Assembly: GCA_003601835.1 (NCBI GenBank)
Contig: PIYB01000007.1
Span: forward strand, 1-34,416
Source of the DNA: Candidatus Bathyarchaeota archaeon
GTDB lineage: Archaea; Thermoproteota; Bathyarchaeia; Bathyarchaeales; DTEX01
DNA length: 34,416 bases
Direction of reading: 5' to 3'
This document shows positions 26,240-33,837 of the stretch, piece after piece. Each line of letters begins with the position of its first letter. Position 1 is the stretch's first letter. Both the position numbers and the translations under genes were made by a program. The notes under the pieces were generated by a model. The model ran no database searches, was not told the DNA's origin, and saw only the letters and a list, made by a program, of their open reading frames with translations.

Positions 26240-27352
26240 TTATTGCTTGTCATTCTCCAGAACACGAGGAATCTTTCCGGATCTAATGGCATGGTCAGCT
26301 AGGACAAGAGCTAAACAAGATTCTACGACGGGTACGGCTCTCGGGACGACGCATGGATCATGTCTTCCCGACAGTTCGATTTCGGTTTCTTCCATCCGGC
26401 TTATGTCAACGGTTTTCTGTCGCTTAGATATGGAAGACGTCGGCTTGAAAGCAACCCTCACAACAATCGGCATGCCCGATGATATTCCGCCAAGCACCCC
26501 GCCAGCATTGTTGGATAAGGAGATAACCCTGCCCTTTCTAACAGCGTACTGGTCGTTGTTTTCTGAACCTTTCATGTAGGCAGCTTGGAAACCTGCGCCA
26601 AACTCTACGCCTTTCACAGCGGGAATGTTGAACATCATTTTGGCTATGTCTGAGTCTAAAGAATCAAAGACAGGTTCCCCGAGTCCAACTGGGACATTCA
26701 AGGCTATCCCTTCAACTATTCCGCCTAGACTATCCCCTTCTTCAATCGTCTTAAGTACAGCCTTTTCCATAAGGACTGCGGTTTCCGGAACAGCGCAGCG
26801 CACTGCATTTTTGTAGACGTTTCTGCGGATATCGTCGTATTCCACTTGACCAGCGACTTTTATCTTGCCGATCTGTACGGTGTGGGCTAAAACCTCTACG
26901 CCGAGGTATGTGAGCAGTTTCTTGGCGATTGCACCCGCCATCACGTAAGCTACGGTGACGCGGCCGCTGAATCTTCCTCCTCCTCTATAATCGTTGTATC
27001 CACCGTACTTTATGTGAGCTGTGTAATCCGCGTGTCCGGGACGAGGCTTTTGTCTCAACAGACGGTACGGTTCGGATTTGACATCGCGGTTTCTAACAAT
27101 CAAACATATCGGCGCGCCTGTTGTGTATCCTTCGTGGATTCCTGAAAGAATCTCGACGCGGTCCTCTTCCTTTCTCCGAGTGCTCACCGACGTAAACCCG
27201 GGTTTTCTTTTGTCCACCTCAGCTTGAACATCCTCAATTGTGAGCTTTAGACCCGCTGGACAGCCATCTAAAACCGCACCGATACATGCGCCGTGGCTTT
27301 CTCCAAAACAAGTCAGGACCAGAGCCTTCCCTATTGAGTTACCGTTCAACAA
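26240..27352 (-). CDS. aroC: Chorismate synthase
   Basis: Chorismate synthase removes phosphate from EPSP using reduced FMN, the seventh and last shikimate step. Motifs include LTCFGESHGACIG, LDGCPAGL, KPRPGHADYTAHIKYGG followed by YNDYRGGGRFSGR, SSGMPIVVRVAFKPTSS, and GRHDPCVVPRAVPVVES near the C-terminus. The start is TTG (27352, or the next codon 27349), placed right after AGGAGG that lies inside the last codons of aroA; the genes overlap by 14 bases. Full length (370 residues). No flavin reductase domain is fused. Confidence 0.96.
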   Translation of the reverse strand: MLNGNSIGKALVLTCFGESHGACIGAVLDGCPAGLKLTIEDVQAEVDKRKPGFTSVSTRRKEEDRVEILSGIHEGYTTGAPICLIVRNRDVKSEPYRLLRQKPRPGHADYTAHIKYGGYNDYRGGGRFSGRVTVAYVMAGAIAKKLLTYLGVEVLAHTVQIGKIKVAGQVEYDDIRRNVYKNAVRCAVPETAVLMEKAVLKTIEEGDSLGGIVEGIALNVPVGLGEPVFDSLDSDIAKMMFNIPAVKGVEFGAGFQAAYMKGSENNDQYAVRKGRVISLSNNAGGVLGGISSGMPIVVRVAFKPTSSISKRQKTVDISRMEETEIELSGRHDPCVVPRAVPVVESCLALVLADHAIRSGKIPRVLENDKQ

Positions 27353-28643
27353 TTTCTCCTCCTAAATGAACGATGTCCCGAAGAAACTTTGGGTAGGATT
27401 TATTTATGCATTCGACGCCACGAATCACCGTGCGCCCGCGAGTCCTTAACGCAGCAACGACGCACGCCATTGCAATTCTGTGATCCCCGTGAGAATCCAG
27501 CTGGGCGGCATGAAACTCTGGTACCCCTTCTATTTCTAGAACATCGTTTGAGGCGTTGATCTTTGCGCCTAGCTTTGTTAACTCGCTTAGCAAGGCGGCT
27601 ATCCTGTCCGACTCCTTAAAACGCAGCCTCTTCACCGATCTAATCACAGATTTTCCAGCAGCTAAGCAGCAGAGAACCGCGCAGACCGGAACCAGATCAG
27701 GATTATCACGTAAATCAACGTTTACCGGTTTCAATTCTCCATTAAGCCCGTGGACCTCAACAAAGTCTTCGCCGATATTGACCTGAACATTCATCTTTGT
27801 CAACAAGTCAACGATCGCTCGGTCGCCTTGCACAGAATTCCTTGCCAGATTTTCAACCTTCACATGTGAGTCTGTGATGGTTGCGGCGGCAAGCAGGAAG
27901 GCTGCGGACGAGTAGTCTCCTTCTATTGCGTGATCGTGTGGCTTATACTTCTGTTGGGAGGGCACGTGGAATTTTCCATATCCGGACTGAACCTTCACAT
28001 GTACTCCGTGTTCTTGTAGAACTTTCAATGTCATCTTCACGTAGGGTTTGGATACAAGTGGGGTTGATAGAACTATGTCCACATCTTTTTCAGCCATAGG
28101 CGCGGCGAAAAGTAGACCTGAAACGAATTGGGAGCTAATGTCACCTCGGAGGCAAGTCTTTCCGCCGGGTATTTTTCCTCCGAACATAACCAGAGGGGGG
28201 CAACCGTTTCCACGCGTGGAATAGCATTGGACACCAAGCTGCCTCAAAGCCGTCAATGCTGGGTTCATCGGTCTCCTACGGAGACTGTCGCCGCCTGTTA
28301 ACACAGAGATACCGTCTGCCAATGCGCAGACTGGTGTGAGAAAACGCATGGTTGAGGCTGAATCTTTGCAGTTCACAACATCTGGAGGGGTGACAAGTTT
28401 TGAATGTCCGCGGACTTCGAATGTTCCTTCCTTTGTTTGATGTATCTCTGCTCCTAGCATGCTGCAAGCGTTAACAGTAGCTAATGTGTCGTCACAGATG
28501 AGCGCGTTCTCTATATTTGACGTTCCCTCTGAAAGCGCAGCTGCTATCAGAGCTCTGTGCGTGTAGGATTTGGAAGGAGGCGCCTTAACTGTTCCGTTAA
28601 GCCGGTTTACCTTTTTTACAACAATATCTGTCAACCTTTTCAC
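27339..28643 (-). CDS. aroA: 3-phosphoshikimate 1-carboxyvinyltransferase (EPSP synthase)
   Basis: EPSP synthase joins shikimate-3-phosphate and phosphoenolpyruvate. Conserved sites are present: APPSKSYTHRALIAAAL, CKDSASTMRFLTPVCAL, EGDYSSAAFLLAAA, RFKESDRIAALLSEL and DSHGDHRIAMACVVAA. The ORF track begins at 28709, but the first 22 residues (MAEIPRRDNR...) are unlike the family. GTG at 28643 overlaps the shikimate-kinase stop by four bases (GTGA) and gives 434 residues, the usual archaeal length. The context (shikimate kinase upstream, chorismate synthase downstream) is in pathway order. Confidence 0.95.
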   Translation of the reverse strand: MKRLTDIVVKKVNRLNGTVKAPPSKSYTHRALIAAALSEGTSNIENALICDDTLATVNACSMLGAEIHQTKEGTFEVRGHSKLVTPPDVVNCKDSASTMRFLTPVCALADGISVLTGGDSLRRRPMNPALTALRQLGVQCYSTRGNGCPPLVMFGGKIPGGKTCLRGDISSQFVSGLLFAAPMAEKDVDIVLSTPLVSKPYVKMTLKVLQEHGVHVKVQSGYGKFHVPSQQKYKPHDHAIEGDYSSAAFLLAAATITDSHVKVENLARNSVQGDRAIVDLLTKMNVQVNIGEDFVEVHGLNGELKPVNVDLRDNPDLVPVCAVLCCLAAGKSVIRSVKRLRFKESDRIAALLSELTKLGAKINASNDVLEIEGVPEFHAAQLDSHGDHRIAMACVVAALRTRGRTVIRGVECINKSYPKFLRDIVHLGGEIVER

Positions 28644-29512
28644 GGCACCACATGGGCTTTTATGGAGTTGATCTTGGTCTCGATTATCTCGCCTTGGAAT
28701 TTCTGCCAAGCTTCTTTAACATAATCTACCTTTTCCGGAGGCACCACAGCGGCAACGGCTGGTCCTGTGCCGGAAAGTCCTGAGGCTAAGGCTCCAGCAT
28801 CTAAAGCATCTATTGCCGCCTTTGTATCGTACTTCAGAACCGTTGAGTAAGCAAGCCCATTAAGGGTCATTGCTGCCCAATATTCGTCTTGAAGCGCAAG
28901 TTTATGTAAAGCCTTGACTTCTCTTCCGATAAGTTTCATCTTCTTAACATCGGATTTGGCTGTGTAAACCTTTTCAGAGGGAACGTGAATAAGGACAGGA
29001 TAGTTTTCTCTCGGATGCACCTGTTTTAAGATTTTCCTGTTGTAATTGTCCGTTATCACAATATCCCCGAAGTACGATGCACAAGCATCGTCAAATGCGC
29101 CTGTTATGGTAACCCCCGCATCCAACGCGGCGTCAACGCCCAGATTAACAACAGTCAAATCGTCAACTTCTTGACCTAAGGCTGCAATAACCGCTACTGT
29201 AACGGCGTTAGCGGCTGCGCTGCTGCTTTTTAGCCCTCTTGCAATTGGAATGTCTGACTTGGTCTCCACATACGCGCCGTATTCATCTTCAAGTCTGAAA
29301 TGTTTCAACACGCGATTGACGGTCTTCTCTATCAGGATTGTGCTTTCCTCTGGATGCGATAGGATTCGTCCTTCGACATGTCCTGGTTCGCTGGTCAGTT
29401 TCACAAAGGCTTCCGTTTTCAGTTCGACGCCTAATGCTGCCCCGAAACCGCATGAAATCGCATTGATAATTGTGACCGCTCCGTGTGCAACAGCCTTTCC
29501 CACAAGCGCCAT
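28640..29512 (-). CDS. aroK: Archaeal shikimate kinase (GHMP superfamily)
   Basis: This is the archaeal, non-homologous shikimate kinase of the GHMP family (MJ1440 type), not the bacterial P-loop AroK. The ATP-binding glycine/serine loop is SDIPIARGLKSSSAAANAVT at about residues 86-105. The N-terminal AVAHGAVTIINAISCGFGAA and the late ALASGLSGTGPAVAAVVPPE (GHMP motif 3) agree. It phosphorylates shikimate for the next gene's product. At 290 residues the length is normal. Start ATG at 29512 with GGGAGG 12 bases upstream, 31 bases after the aroE stop. Assignment is strengthened by its place between aroE and aroA. Confidence 0.95.
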   Translation of the reverse strand: MALVGKAVAHGAVTIINAISCGFGAALGVELKTEAFVKLTSEPGHVEGRILSHPEESTILIEKTVNRVLKHFRLEDEYGAYVETKSDIPIARGLKSSSAAANAVTVAVIAALGQEVDDLTVVNLGVDAALDAGVTITGAFDDACASYFGDIVITDNYNRKILKQVHPRENYPVLIHVPSEKVYTAKSDVKKMKLIGREVKALHKLALQDEYWAAMTLNGLAYSTVLKYDTKAAIDALDAGALASGLSGTGPAVAAVVPPEKVDYVKEAWQKFQGEIIETKINSIKAHVVP

Positions 29513-29543
29513 CGCCGTGTTTCGCCTCCCTTCATTCTTCTTT

Positions 29544-30407
29544 TCATCTTTCCTTCAGTTCCCGCAACGCCGCGTCCATCATGACCTTTATTGGCGGTTC
29601 AACGCCAGTCCAAATCTCGAATGAGATTGCCCCCTGAAACACAAGCATAGTTAGACCATTAACGGTCTTCGCGCCTTTCTTCTTTGCTTCGCTAAGCAGT
29701 CTCGTCTCAAGAGGGTTATAAACGAGGTCGAAGACCGTCAAGCTAGGATGGAGAAGACTGGGGTTAACAGGTGTAACATCTGTGTTCGGTCGCATTCCGA
29801 CGGGGGTCGCGTTTACAAGAATGTCTGCGTCTTCGAGTTCTTTCTTGACGTTTTCGTCGTCAAGTTTCCCCGCTCTCGTCTCCGCAGCGTTTTCTGACAT
29901 GCAGGAAAGATTATTCACCAAGTTCTCTGCTCGTTTCAGGGTTCTGTTCAAAACTACGAGTTCTCTTGCTTCCTTTGCCAGAGCGAACGAGACTGATCTC
30001 GAAGCGCCGCCTGCTCCTAAAACAACGATTTTCTTTCCAGACGGATCTGTTCCGTGGTACTTTAGAGCTTTCAAGGCGCCCATCCCGTCGGTTGTGTAAC
30101 CGATTAGTCTTCCATTCTTGTTCAAGATCGTGTTAACTGAACCTATGCTCTCAGCGGTCTTATCCAGTTCGTCAAGGTACTTGATGACATCTATCTTGTG
30201 AGGCATCGTGACGTTCAATCCACGAATCCCAAAACTGCGCATACCTTGAACGGCGCTGTGAAGATGTTCTTTTTTCACGGTGAAAACTACATAGACATAG
30301 TCTAAGCCAAGATGTTGAAACGCGGCATTCTGAAAACAGGGACTCAAAGAATGTTCCACAGGATTCCCTATCAACCCGCAAACTTTCGTCTTACCAGAAA
30401 TCCTCAT
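29544..30407 (-). CDS. aroE: Shikimate dehydrogenase
   Basis: AroE reduces 3-dehydroshikimate to shikimate with NADPH. Key elements: substrate site IGNPVEHSLSPCFQNAAF, the catalytic lysine K71 in GLNVTMPHKID, IGSVNTIL, GYTTDGMGALKAL with the catalytic aspartate, the Rossmann glycine loop VLGAGGASRSVSFAL, and NATPVGMRP. The NRT after the second strand (VVLNRTLKRA) suits NADPH. Its ATG overlaps the aroD stop (ATGA), so the two are translationally coupled; in some organisms they are fused. Full length at 287 residues. Confidence 0.95.
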   Translation of the reverse strand: MRISGKTKVCGLIGNPVEHSLSPCFQNAAFQHLGLDYVYVVFTVKKEHLHSAVQGMRSFGIRGLNVTMPHKIDVIKYLDELDKTAESIGSVNTILNKNGRLIGYTTDGMGALKALKYHGTDPSGKKIVVLGAGGASRSVSFALAKEARELVVLNRTLKRAENLVNNLSCMSENAAETRAGKLDDENVKKELEDADILVNATPVGMRPNTDVTPVNPSLLHPSLTVFDLVYNPLETRLLSEAKKKGAKTVNGLTMLVFQGAISFEIWTGVEPPIKVMMDAALRELKER

Positions 30408-31105
30408 AAGTCAACACCAAGTTTTCTGTAGATCTTCCTTAGATCGGCTATTGATATTTGTCCTGAAGCCGTTTCCAACGTGCTTTCAAGCGAAGCGAAA
30501 GTGAAAACGGCGCCGAAAAATGGAGAAAGAACCCTGGAAAGGATTCCTTTTCCGCCCATAGCGAAACAAACTAGTTCTGTAGCATCCTTCATCTTGTGAG
30601 CGAAAAGCAAACAATTAATGTTGTCCGCCAAGTTGTTAGCTTTAGTGACAAGCTTGCAGACCTTTGCTGCTGCTTCGATCTGTGACCTGACAATCTTTTC
30701 CATCTCAGACTCAGATGGCGTACGCTGGAAATTGTGAAACGAAACAATGGGGTTTGAACCGGAATCTCTTATTCTACGGACTATTTCATTCAGGTTCGCA
30801 GTGGTCAATTCTACGTCAACATACTGGAACCCTATCTCGGCTGCTTTGATCAAGGTTTGGACTCTTTGTTCCTCGTTTTGCCGGCGATATCCTCCTTGGC
30901 TGTATTGTCTGTTTGTAGCGATAAGCGGCACCGAAGCCTCCTTAATGGTCTCGTTAAGCTGATCAAGGTCGTCAGAAGCACTCATATCCAGATAGTCTAA
31001 ACGTATCTCAATCAGATCTGCGCCCGCCTCCTCCGCTCTTCTGATCATGGATGGTAGATCGGAGATTCTCGTAGCCGGCAAAGGGACGCAGATCTTGGGA
31101 TTCAC
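30404..31105 (-). CDS. aroD: 3-dehydroquinate dehydratase, type I
   Basis: Type I (Schiff-base) dehydroquinase dehydrates 3-dehydroquinate to 3-dehydroshikimate. IEIRLDYLDM holds the substrate-binding E-x-R. The catalytic pair appears as H124 in SFHNFQRTP and K151 in AKVCKLVTKANN. The C-terminal FAMGGKGILSRVLSPFFGA and ASGQISIADL complete the barrel. Start is GTG at 31105, overlapping the aroB' stop by four bases (GTGA). Length 233 residues, normal. Confidence 0.95.
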   Translation of the reverse strand: MNPKICVPLPATRISDLPSMIRRAEEAGADLIEIRLDYLDMSASDDLDQLNETIKEASVPLIATNRQYSQGGYRRQNEEQRVQTLIKAAEIGFQYVDVELTTANLNEIVRRIRDSGSNPIVSFHNFQRTPSESEMEKIVRSQIEAAAKVCKLVTKANNLADNINCLLFAHKMKDATELVCFAMGGKGILSRVLSPFFGAVFTFASLESTLETASGQISIADLRKIYRKLGVDL

Positions 31106-32196
31106 AGTTCGATCACCCGTTCTTCCTTCACAAGGGTTCCGAAGTGTCTGCCGCCTTCTTCAAGGTGTACAAGAACCTTGTCGCCCGGAGCAAGTTCGCT
31201 CACGGATTTGCTTCCGTTTTCTGTCACTAGCCTTATTGTTTCGGCGTTCTGGAGAATCGTTTTAACGGTTCGTCCTTCACATTCCGCTTCAATCATTAGC
31301 AGCGGTCTCCATTCTATCTTAGCGCGGCAAAGGGTTGTGGTTCGGCTTCTTCCTTCACGGTCCACTATGAGAACCTCATCTCCAGCCTTCAACTCAGAAA
31401 GGTACCGGGTCTTTCCGCCAGGTGCAAGAACATAAAGCGCAATTGACCCGGCGTTAACCCTGAAGGGACGAGGAGCAACAAAGGGGGTTTCATGAACCTC
31501 AGCTTCCACAAGGAAGAGGCTTGCAGATTGGCAACCAACAAGCAGTCCTTCTCCTTCCTTCATCAAATCGCATGTGTCAATGCACACACGTGCGCCTGAA
31601 CTTAGGGATTTGATGTTTTTGACTTCTGCGGGAATAAGCGGTATGGTTTCAGCGGATTCAATCTCTGATGTTCTGGTCTTGACTTCTTTAACGGTTTCAT
31701 GAATCTTCAGTATTTGCCTGATGTCTGAAACGTCAGCTACGATTCCATCTACACCTATCTCAAGAGTTTCTAGGGCGGTCTTTGCTTCCTGAACATCTGA
31801 AACCGATGCGAGAAGCCTAGTTTTGCCCTGTGTTGTCGCTATAAGATTTTCTATAGGGATTATCTTCCAGTCTGGACATACCGCTAAGATGTAGTCAGCT
31901 GCTGCTTCGGCTGCTGCTAGAATCTTTTTTTCGTCTCCTTTCGATTTAACCGTGACGGCGACGCAGACTTTACGGTCTGATTTTCTGATCTCTTGGATGT
32001 CACTGAGGTTTTCTGTAAGTATGATGTCTCCTTTTTCTGAAGAGGTTACCAATGTGGTTGCTCCTGATTTTCTAGCCAGCTCGATATCTTCAGGTTCAAC
32101 CATGAAAGCAGAGACCACAGACGAAGTCTTCCTTATAATCTTCTTTTTTGTCTTCTCATCTAGGGTTGGGTCAATTTTTACCCATAATTCTCTCAT
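31102..32196 (-). CDS. aroB': 3-dehydroquinate synthase II (archaeal AroB')
   Basis: This enzyme oxidatively deaminates and cyclises 2-amino-3,7-dideoxy-D-threo-hept-6-ulosonate (ADH) to 3-dehydroquinate, replacing bacterial AroB in archaea that lack DAHP. Family features: RELWVKIDP at the start, IDTCDLMKEGEGLLVGCQSA, FVAPRPFRVNAGSIALYVLA, GDEVLIVDREGRSR and the ILQNAETIRLV tail. I start at ATG 32196, with GGAGG 11 bases upstream inside the aspartokinase end and one base after its stop; the track's 32214 adds six residues. Its substrate is made by the divergent aldolase gene at 33838. Confidence 0.94.
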   Translation of the reverse strand: MRELWVKIDPTLDEKTKKKIIRKTSSVVSAFMVEPEDIELARKSGATTLVTSSEKGDIILTENLSDIQEIRKSDRKVCVAVTVKSKGDEKKILAAAEAAADYILAVCPDWKIIPIENLIATTQGKTRLLASVSDVQEAKTALETLEIGVDGIVADVSDIRQILKIHETVKEVKTRTSEIESAETIPLIPAEVKNIKSLSSGARVCIDTCDLMKEGEGLLVGCQSASLFLVEAEVHETPFVAPRPFRVNAGSIALYVLAPGGKTRYLSELKAGDEVLIVDREGRSRTTTLCRAKIEWRPLLMIEAECEGRTVKTILQNAETIRLVTENGSKSVSELAPGDKVLVHLEEGGRHFGTLVKEERVIEL

Positions 32197-32197
32197 T

Positions 32198-33490
32198 TCA
32201 TGTTTTTCCTCCAAGTTGACTTTTTAGCTCTGAGTTGTTGTTAATCGCTACCGCTTCTTCTATTAACTGAATCGCCTTCTTTCGGTTCTTAAGGTCCACA
32301 AACACCACGACGCTGGACGTGATGGTGAAGGTGCCATAAATGTTTATGTTTGCAGAGTTTAAGGCTTTAGTTATGCTACTTATTACTCCGGGGGTTTCCT
32401 CAAGCCCGATTCCTTTAACCCTTATGAAAGCAAGATTCTTCCTTACGCCCATGGCTAGAGTACTTCGGTGCCTAACGACAATTGAATGAATCAGCTCCAA
32501 AAGAGTCTCACCAGCCTTTACTGGAAGATACAGGACTAGAGAATTATGGTTTATAGACATGCCCAGCAACGGCGCCTTCGCTTTGTTAATCTCTCGAAGA
32601 ATTTCAGCGAGAGTCTGCATGGATTCCGAGACGGCTTTGCCGACTATTGTGATCGCCATTGCAGAACCTGAATACGGATCGACAAAGATGCTTTTAGGAA
32701 AGCTACCTCGAATTATGGTTCCCTCAGCGTCAAGGCTTCCAGCTGAATTACTGATAACTTTCACGTCCATTTCCGGGTTTTTGTATCGCAAAGCCTTTTT
32801 GTGAATGAACTTGGTGCCAGAATCAGCCAAACCCACAAGGGCATCCATCGAAATTTCTTTTATTTTCAGAGGTTTCTTGATGACCTTTGGGTCAGCTGTC
32901 ATAATTCCCTCCACATCTGTGACCAAAACAACCTGGTCGGCGGCTAACGCTTGAGCCAGAATCATGGCTGTGATGTCGCTTCCCCCTCTTCCCAACGTTG
33001 TTATCTTCCCGTGTTCCGTTTTACCGATGAAGCCGGGAACGACTACAATTACACCCTTTTCAAGCAGCGGTTGAACGTGTCTTTTGATTAATCTTTCGCA
33101 GACAGGTAAAATTGGTTTAGCGTTCAGATGAACATCATCGGTTATAATAGGCCAGTCAGGGTCAACTGGATCCATGTAACGGCTTTCCCAACCGTGAGCC
33201 CGTAGAGACGCCGAGAAGATTCTTGCATTGGTTCTTTCACCCATAGCAATTATGTCATCTAACTCGTCGTTTGGAATCTCTTCTCCGCACGCTGTTTTCG
33301 CCGTGTCAATCAGATGATCCGTTGTCTTCCCCATCGCAGAGACGACAACAGCGATCTGGACGCCTTGCTCAGCCTTTTTTATGACCGAGTTCGCTGCCCG
33401 GGATATTGCTGTTCCATCAGCTAGGCTGCTTCCTCCGAACTTGGCAACGAGGCGACCGAACGGTTTTTTGTCTTTTTTCATTTTCATCAT
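32198..33490 (-). CDS. lysC: Aspartate kinase with C-terminal ACT domains
   Basis: Aspartokinase phosphorylates aspartate, the first step to aspartate-semialdehyde. Motifs: VAKFGGSSLADG, ITTLGRGGSDITAMILAQAL, VEGIMTADPKVI, and the SGTKFIHKKAL region that follows. Two ACT domains occupy roughly the last 130 residues (SINHNSLVLYLPV; GVISSITKALNSANINIYG), so feedback control is likely. The start is one of clustered ATGs (33490, 33487, 33481), with TTG at 33493 in the track; no strong ribosome site. As first gene of the aro operon it makes biochemical sense: aspartate-semialdehyde is a substrate of the archaeal ADH synthase. It also feeds the DUF39 homocysteine route. Asd itself is not in the window. 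Confidence 0.93.
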   Translation of the reverse strand: MMKMKKDKKPFGRLVAKFGGSSLADGTAISRAANSVIKKAEQGVQIAVVVSAMGKTTDHLIDTAKTACGEEIPNDELDDIIAMGERTNARIFSASLRAHGWESRYMDPVDPDWPIITDDVHLNAKPILPVCERLIKRHVQPLLEKGVIVVVPGFIGKTEHGKITTLGRGGSDITAMILAQALAADQVVLVTDVEGIMTADPKVIKKPLKIKEISMDALVGLADSGTKFIHKKALRYKNPEMDVKVISNSAGSLDAEGTIIRGSFPKSIFVDPYSGSAMAITIVGKAVSESMQTLAEILREINKAKAPLLGMSINHNSLVLYLPVKAGETLLELIHSIVVRHRSTLAMGVRKNLAFIRVKGIGLEETPGVISSITKALNSANINIYGTFTITSSVVVFVDLKNRKKAIQLIEEAVAINNNSELKSQLGGKT

Positions 33491-33493
33491 CAA

Positions 33494-33837
33494 AACCCCA
33501 AAACGGAAGAAACCAGAGACCGTAAAAGGAAGTTTCCGGTTTCTTCAGCCTAATATGTAGTATAAAAGCTGAAGAAACGCGTCATTCGCGTAGTGTAGAG
33601 AAACCTTAACGAGCGCATGTTTTCCATCTGAAGGCTCTCCGCTTTTCCGTCTCTACCATTATCTCGTATATAAGCCTTGTGAAGACAGGGACTAATTCCT
33701 TTTTGCGTATTGGTAGAACAAGTCATACAATGGGTTTCGGCGAAATCTTGCTGTCTGAAGCAAAATCTTTTATGCGGAAACCTTGTTTACTCTAGGGGTG
33801 CATCGCTCAATAAGCTCATCAAAAGAGAGTGTAGGTT
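33494..33837. promoter_or_regulatory. Divergent control region between the aspartokinase-aro operon and aroA'
   Basis: A 344-bp gap without a gene. Rightward, CTTTTATGC at 33767-33775 is a TATA-like element for aroA'. Leftward, GCTTATATACG (complement of 33664-33674) would give a leader of about 150 nt for the operon; a second option, AGCTTTTATACTAC (complement of 33557-33570), would give a short one. The leader carries three related arms: GAAGAAACC (33506-33514), GGTTTCTTCAGC (33538-33549) and GCTGAAGAAAC (33568-33578). The middle arm can pair with either neighbour but not both. Confidence 0.5.
33506..33578 (-). repeat. Overlapping inverted repeats (mutually exclusive hairpins) ahead of lysC-aro
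   Basis: GTTTCTTCAGC (33539-33549) and GCTGAAGAAAC (33568-33578) form a perfect 11-bp inverted repeat with an 18-base loop. GAAGAAACC (33506-33514) and GGTTTCTTC (33538-33546) form a perfect 9-bp one that shares the middle arm. The 18-base loop contains a TATA-like GTATAAAA, so the repeat could also be a DNA operator around a promoter. Confidence 0.6.

Follow-up and report, generated by a model that had tools for sequence, protein, structure and literature searches.

A Phe/Tyr-rich leader ORF that ends beside a conserved RNA hairpin is a probable ribosome-read attenuator of the aspartokinase-aro operon in Bathyarchaeia

The region upstream of the aspartokinase (AK)-aro operon in a Candidatus Bathyarchaeota archaeon is very probably a ribosome-read leader, that is, an attenuator of the operon. 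Comparison of related sequences establishes a short open reading frame (ORF) ahead of AK, the bias of this ORF toward aromatic codons and the position of these codons, an RNA hairpin with its covariation and, among the genes tested, the uniqueness of the arrangement to this operon.

The stretch of DNA that we analyzed, called the window here, comprises 34,416 nt of contig PIYB01000007.1. An operon on its minus strand and a divergent plus-strand gene for 2-amino-3,7-dideoxy-D-threo-hept-6-ulosonate (ADH) synthase, separated by a 344-nt intergenic region, together encode the archaeal aromatic pathway. In archaea, aspartate semialdehyde is the compound from which aromatic synthesis begins (PMC4162585), so that AK can be understood as the supply enzyme that heads the aro operon. 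The genes of the operon are:

32198 to 33490, minus strand: aspartokinase (AK), first gene of the operon, with its ATG at 33490; NCBIfam NF005159 above cut-off
31102 to 32214, minus strand: 3-dehydroquinate synthase II (archaeal aro step 2), overlapping the AK ORF; best match NF002626 (E 8e-106), under that model's cut-off
26240 to 31105, minus strand: the remaining operon (aroD, aroE, archaeal shikimate kinase, aroA and aroC), mostly overlapping genes

Upstream of AK, in the direction of transcription, the leader contains the following features:

33667 to 33674, minus strand: likely TATA box of the AK-aro operon, CTTATATA, conserved as TTTATATA/TTTAAATA in the family alignment
33635 to 33640, minus strand: Shine-Dalgarno (SD) sequence of the leader ORF, GGAGAG, 7 nt before the ATG; the CGGAGA core is invariant in 8/8 family members
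33550 to 33627, minus strand: leader ORF, translated as MENMRSLRFLYTTRMTRFFSFYTTY (25 codons and TAG), with its ATG at 33627; homologous Phe/Tyr-rich ORFs occur in relatives
33568 to 33578, minus strand: arm C, within the leader ORF (Arg-Phe-Phe-Ser codons), which pairs with arm B in this genome only
33538 to 33549, minus strand: arm B, the 5′ arm of the hairpin, starting at the base after the leader stop codon
33506 to 33514, minus strand: arm A, the 3′ arm of the hairpin; the RNA stem spans 33546-33506 (-17.1 kcal/mol)
33496 to 33499, minus strand: SD-like GGGG of AK, 6 nt after arm A and 5 nt before the ATG

The first bases of the Phe and Tyr codons in the leader ORF lie at 33603, 33597, 33576, 33573, 33567, 33564 and 33555. 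A sequence-only reading that had drawn attention to the arms overlooked this short minus-strand ORF, which contains arm C. Judging from the position of the TATA box, transcription of the operon would start near 33645; in 49 of 73 leaders, where 19 would be expected, TATA-like words cluster at a distance of 121-137 nt ahead of the leader stop. Inside the leader ORF, the window differs in length from its relatives in family f1 by 12 nt, a multiple of three, and remains in frame. Thr is likewise frequent in leaders of the window's family and of family f4 (TTRMT..YTTY, STTSTTTSS). As Thr is another product of the aspartate family, its abundance could represent a second signal. On the other side of the intergenic region, a CTTTTAT(G/T) motif (33767-33774 in the window, plus strand) is conserved ahead of the ADH synthase gene and is likely to be its TATA box.

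AK orthologues were found in 75 of the 163 genomes of the order. Most of the genomes used for comparison are MAGs, all results come from comparing sequences, and matches in a contig scan for AK were mostly remote aspartokinases. A Phe/Tyr-rich ORF ends shortly before AK in all 71 of the order-level leaders that could be read; examples of the peptides, each followed by a stop codon, are RFFTYFSGYYTTF, TPFFGRFGYFGY, SSMFYSFSYFFYN and SFDYGFYYFGYFP. The last 16 leader codons contain a mean of 7.9 Phe, Tyr or Trp codons, compared with 3.6 in dinucleotide shuffles, and 1.3% of shuffles matched the observed aromatic count. Phe and Tyr make up ~48% of these codons, and about half that share in the shuffles. 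The richness is specific to the reading frame, since the ORF's own frame has 8.0 aromatic codons and the two shifted frames have 2.3 and 1.6. It is concentrated near the end of the ORF: at codons -2 to -7, a fraction of 0.69-0.88 is Phe, Tyr or Trp, and farther from the stop than -17 this fraction drops almost to 0. When the order-level set was supplemented with five leaders from elsewhere and four leaders were dropped, the final aromatic codon lay at -1 to -3 before the stop in all 72 of the resulting leaders. The order of the residues differs between leader families (for example, NPYYYYYYYCFF, FHYPYFYFFYCYYFFEG and the SFDYGFYYFGYFP leader above, all ending at a stop), whereas the richness in Phe and Tyr is kept, which points to the reading of codons and not to a functional peptide. 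A codon-position test carries little weight, because the third-position excess in the leader ORF is modest (5179 vs 3889 and 4350) and a shifted frame has a similar synonymous share. No aromatic leader peptides were found ahead of hisG or the second aspartokinase of the same organisms, which served as negative controls, and none was seen by eye in the sequence upstream of the window's pheA (19489 onward).

The second conserved element is the hairpin formed by arms B and A. It starts 0-5 nt past the leader stop in 70 of the 72 leaders and is followed after 3-7 nt by the SD-like word of AK in most relatives. Across 40 distinct stem sequences, double compensatory changes are present at 9/9 outer base pairs. 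In the hairpin alignment, 91.7% of cells are paired, compared with 55% after shuffling, and double changes number 135 versus 40.7; the covariation score is 0.974 versus 0.267 for the shuffled alignment and falls to 0.30 and 0.40 when the alignment is slid by one column. Among the stem cells that are not Watson-Crick pairs, with stems chosen by folding the AK mRNA strand, 32 are G.U and 2 are A.C on that strand, a disparity indicating that the hairpin acts as RNA of the AK strand. The hairpin pattern of families f4 and f5 (TAA GCCCAG ... CTGGGC) occurs once per genome in 11 genomes and is located at AK in 10 of them. Searches of the locus with Rfam covariance models, covering riboswitch, T-box and other leader classes, gave no match near the gathering score.

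Could the repeats instead be a DNA operator, with a regulator binding the GAAGAAAC/GTTTCTTC repeats around the promoter? This was the explanation toward which the sequence-only reading leaned. In its favor, a repeated word and a dyad lie close to a TATA-like motif in the window. The motif, TATAAAAG, is indeed in the loop, but its bases are the leader codons Phe-Tyr, and the loop continues as Thr-Thr-Tyr-stop. We rejected a promoter at this site, since TTT TAT encodes Phe-Tyr and aligned relatives keep Tyr-Thr-Thr-Phe-stop; the dyad lies ~90-170 nt downstream of the conserved, likely TATA box. The words AGAAACC and GGAAACC that had been taken as further hints of a binding site are likewise present, the first at 33599-33605 (and not at about 33596), where it is part of an Arg-Phe codon pair in the leader ORF, and the second at 33776-33782, directly after the TATA-like box of the ADH synthase gene; neither recurs as an operator word in relatives. 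The arms differ completely between relatives and are nevertheless still complementary, the G.U pairs are biased to one strand, and the arm A sequence, GAAGAAACC, has 68 copies in the 1.25-Mb genome. In light of these findings, we regard an operator as highly improbable. Nearly as improbable is that the leader ORF is the gene of a small, hydrophobic protein with a function of its own and lies ahead of AK by chance. Although such a protein would be consistent with the conservation of an SF(D/E/G)Y.FYY segment inside family f5, what is kept between families is the Phe/Tyr richness and the distance to the hairpin, not the order of residues, and the stop codon adjoins the hairpin.

A different question is whether the ribosome-read leader uses the third arm. 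Read directly from the plus strand, arms A (33506-33514, GAAGAAACC), B (33538-33549, GGTTTCTTCAGC) and C (33568-33578, GCTGAAGAAAC) form, as originally described, perfect inverted repeats of 9 bp (A:B, 33506-33514/33538-33546) and 11 bp (B:C, 33539-33549/33568-33578) that have arm B in common. In dinucleotide shuffles of the 344-nt intergenic region, a perfect repeat of at least 11 bp with a loop of at most 40 appeared in 0.2% (P about 0.002) and two repeats of at least 9 bp in 0.4% (P about 0.004), and B:C is the sole repeat of at least 11 bp with a loop of at most 40 in the entire window. The two stems differ little in energy (-17.1 kcal/mol for B:A and -16.1 for C:B), and a ribosome mask placed over the Phe/Tyr codons and arm C flips the predicted fold to B:A and leaves the SD more exposed. 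It is conceivable that C:B and B:A exclude each other and that a ribosome covering arm C selects B:A. Pairing of C with B in the window is better than in 99% of synonymous-codon shuffles (z -2.46), but it is an outlier: across 69 leaders, the ORF tail pairs with arm B no better than when its peptide is encoded by shuffled synonymous codons (mean z -0.06), and the 68 other leaders, family members included, have no signal as a group. We thus rejected arm C as a general conserved feature. The flip of the window fold is suggestive only, since in relatives the exposure of the masked SD does not beat that obtained with swapped downstream sequences. The C:B stem may also be a by-product of Phe-Phe-Ser codons that face a GAAGAAAC arm. 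We consider a three-arm RNA switch unlikely; the window may be alone in having this design, or the design may be such a by-product. The suggestion that the ~150-nt leader contains an RNA switch holds in altered form, as attenuation-like control through a conserved Phe/Tyr-rich leader peptide that ends on a hairpin. The competing hairpins proposed for it exist in the window, and comparison with relatives, the way suggested for telling RNA from operator, revealed strong covariation of A:B and no conservation of C:B.

If the region is a ribosome-read leader, how might it control the operon? We propose that a ribosome translates the 25-codon leader peptide, which ends in a cluster of Phe/Tyr codons, and approaches a stop codon that would place it against the B:A hairpin, directly ahead of the AK ribosome-binding site. 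A shortage of charged tRNA-Phe or tRNA-Tyr would cause the ribosome to stall in the cluster beside the hairpin; with an ample supply of the charged tRNAs, it would reach the leader stop and depart. The place where the ribosome rests would determine whether the hairpin forms and, through this, the level of AK, and the overlapping genes, for which translational coupling is likely, would pass this control on to the rest of the aro operon. We infer that the leader ORF is translated, that the device responds to starvation and that a shortage of aromatic amino acids results in higher expression.

The output step is less certain, because conservation of C:B is lacking and the leaders as a group have no common terminator and no common sequestration of the SD. 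One possibility, to which we give roughly even credence, is that the leader controls the initiation of AK translation, with the hairpin hindering 30S loading and a stalled ribosome preventing arm B from pairing. We favor this output because most leaders have no U-tract after the stem, the genes overlap and the stem adjoins the SD. The polarity, in which a stall opens the hairpin, is less certain. Starved ribosomes should stall first at the upstream Phe/Tyr codons, too far from arm B for their footprint to cover it. With a ribosome held at the first aromatic codons, the stem would stay folded, while one at the last codons or the stop would melt it. Sequestration of the SD by a freed arm A was also considered and found no support: arm A-SD pairing was no better in leaders' own sequences than in cross-family swaps (P 0.82), and ribosome masks were unsupportive. 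Masking of arm B increased the predicted exposure of the SD in only a few distant leaders.

It is also possible, though we doubt it, that attenuation is transcriptional in the strict sense, with the leader ribosome deciding, as at E. coli pheA and trp, whether RNA polymerase terminates in the leader, here at an archaeal terminator of the U-tract or factor-dependent type. In 48 of the 72 leaders, the hairpin region contains a run of at least four U, two leaders of family f12 have a hairpin with a U-run after the stem, and the near-equal energies and mask-dependent fold of the window hairpins would suit such a decision. Against this, a U-tract after the hairpin is inconsistent, and there is no conserved terminator/antiterminator pair. 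A general intrinsic terminator was rejected, since only 9/72 leaders have a run of at least four U in the 8 nt that follow the hairpin. About as doubtful is an output other than either translation initiation or termination of leader transcription.

The same leader anatomy is present in other orders of Bathyarchaeia, in families f12 (NPYYYYYYYCFF), f13 (FHYPYFYFFYCYYFFEG), f19 (HTTFCYYSYCTSFSFSG) and f14 (locus L184, AFRSYAAFFFSYR), and similar leaders precede AK in other classes of the phylum (KKVFGFFYGFYFYFYFGP, KFNWPYYWYYF, TYSFSYFFYYSF and RTFFYGVWSFYYFALA, each ending at a stop). In some leaders outside the order, the stem appears to include the SD, and masking gave mixed results. In family f32 (L323, L324, L325, L334), a long hairpin, CCTCCTGAAGCC...GGGCTTCGGGAG, seemingly lies within the leader coding region before a short Phe/Tyr cluster, which seems to be a different arrangement of the same leader idea.

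A second variant emerged at trpE. No Trp-run leader was found in the trpE upstream regions, and it was the search for one that led us to notice a cassette in which an ORF with an SD and ATG, encoding M(R/G)(D/N/Y)x(V/I/L)W, has NUU-UGG as its codons 5-6 and lies ahead of trpE; about 70 of the 79 Bathyarchaeia examined have it (loci L195-L209 and L211-L289; 67 were counted by script, L197 was read directly, and L214 and L216 resemble it). Here, trpE lies in the +1 frame of the cassette ORF, and in 34 cases there is no ATG, GTG or TTG before the TrpE domain. From this arrangement, trpE looks as though it uses +1 frameshifting of the prfB type at a hungry Trp codon. The AK genes of families f10 and f15 (L178, L179, L181, L183, L185-L188, L191, L192) are similarly in the +1 frame of a short ORF, which contains the codon pairs NUU-UUC, NUU-UAU or NUU-UAC and encodes peptides such as MGDCVFGDGVYF, VKQIGGRIFGGHIYGDHYW and MGGHLYWH; in some genomes, the AK frame itself offers few start codons that could serve. 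These AK genes seem to use +1 frameshifting at hungry Phe/Tyr codons. We also observed that trpE promoters (L195-L209, ~1340-1400 of the turned loci) contain a TGTACA palindrome close to TGTACATTTTTGTACA, just upstream of a TTTAAATA box. These palindromes presumably resemble the TRP box of TrpY.

Regulators of aromatic synthesis in archaea have been described. TrpY of Methanothermobacter and Tar of Thermococcus act on the same pathway as the leader described here but, unlike it, are DNA-binding proteins, which recognize TRP-box and TGGACA-N8-TGTCCA palindromes (PMC6737238). Crenarchaeota have aro and trp operons and almost never Tar or TrpY, and it has been suggested that a third regulator or mechanism may act (PMC6737238). 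The AK leader is a candidate for such a third mechanism in lineages without TrpY and Tar. In the open literature, our search scope, we found no archaeal amino-acid leader peptide or attenuator; the introduction of one article mentions archaea in general terms with regard to attenuation (PMC10219788). In the parts of a frameshifting review that we consulted, the archaeal cases are confined to magnesium chelatase, haloviruses and a possibility in Sulfolobus (PMC5009743).

We think it likely that archaea of this phylum sense charged tRNA with the ribosome, through AK-aro attenuators together with frameshifting at trpE and at AK (f10 and f15), as their main control of aromatic synthesis. If so, such sensing would supply the missing mechanism where TrpY and Tar are absent and would be the first case of codon-reading attenuation in archaea. 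The leader device has been kept across much of a class and is met again in further classes of the phylum. It would imply a coupling between translation of the leader and gene expression in archaea, the frameshift cassettes would be a second variant of the same sensing idea, and control of aro and trp in lineages without known regulators would become directly testable.

Attenuation by the reading of codons is textbook knowledge for bacteria. Its kind is therefore familiar, and what is new is the domain, the anatomy and the gene set. Like the E. coli pheA/pheL, trpL and hisL leaders, the AK leader has a short ORF with clustered codons for the end product and a stop beside a stem located ahead of the first structural gene. 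The resemblance to pheL is a general one and does not derive from a homology test. In contrast to the E. coli attenuators, the AK leader is archaeal, would govern aspartokinase and the archaeal aro pathway, has one conserved stop-adjoining hairpin in place of a conserved 1:2/2:3/3:4 set and has no general intrinsic terminator. With the translational attenuation of ermC and cat, it would share a stalled leader ribosome beside a stem that adjoins the SD of the next gene, but the proposed cause of the stall is uncharged tRNA instead of an antibiotic, and the SD is usually just outside the stem. The trpE cassettes and those of AK in f10 and f15 are closest to prfB (CUU UGA C), since in each an NUU codon is followed by a slow codon that starts with U, and the downstream gene is in the +1 frame. 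They differ from prfB in being archaeal and in the slow codon, which is UGG, UUC, UAU or UAC instead of UGA, and frameshifting is not the mechanism of the window leader itself.
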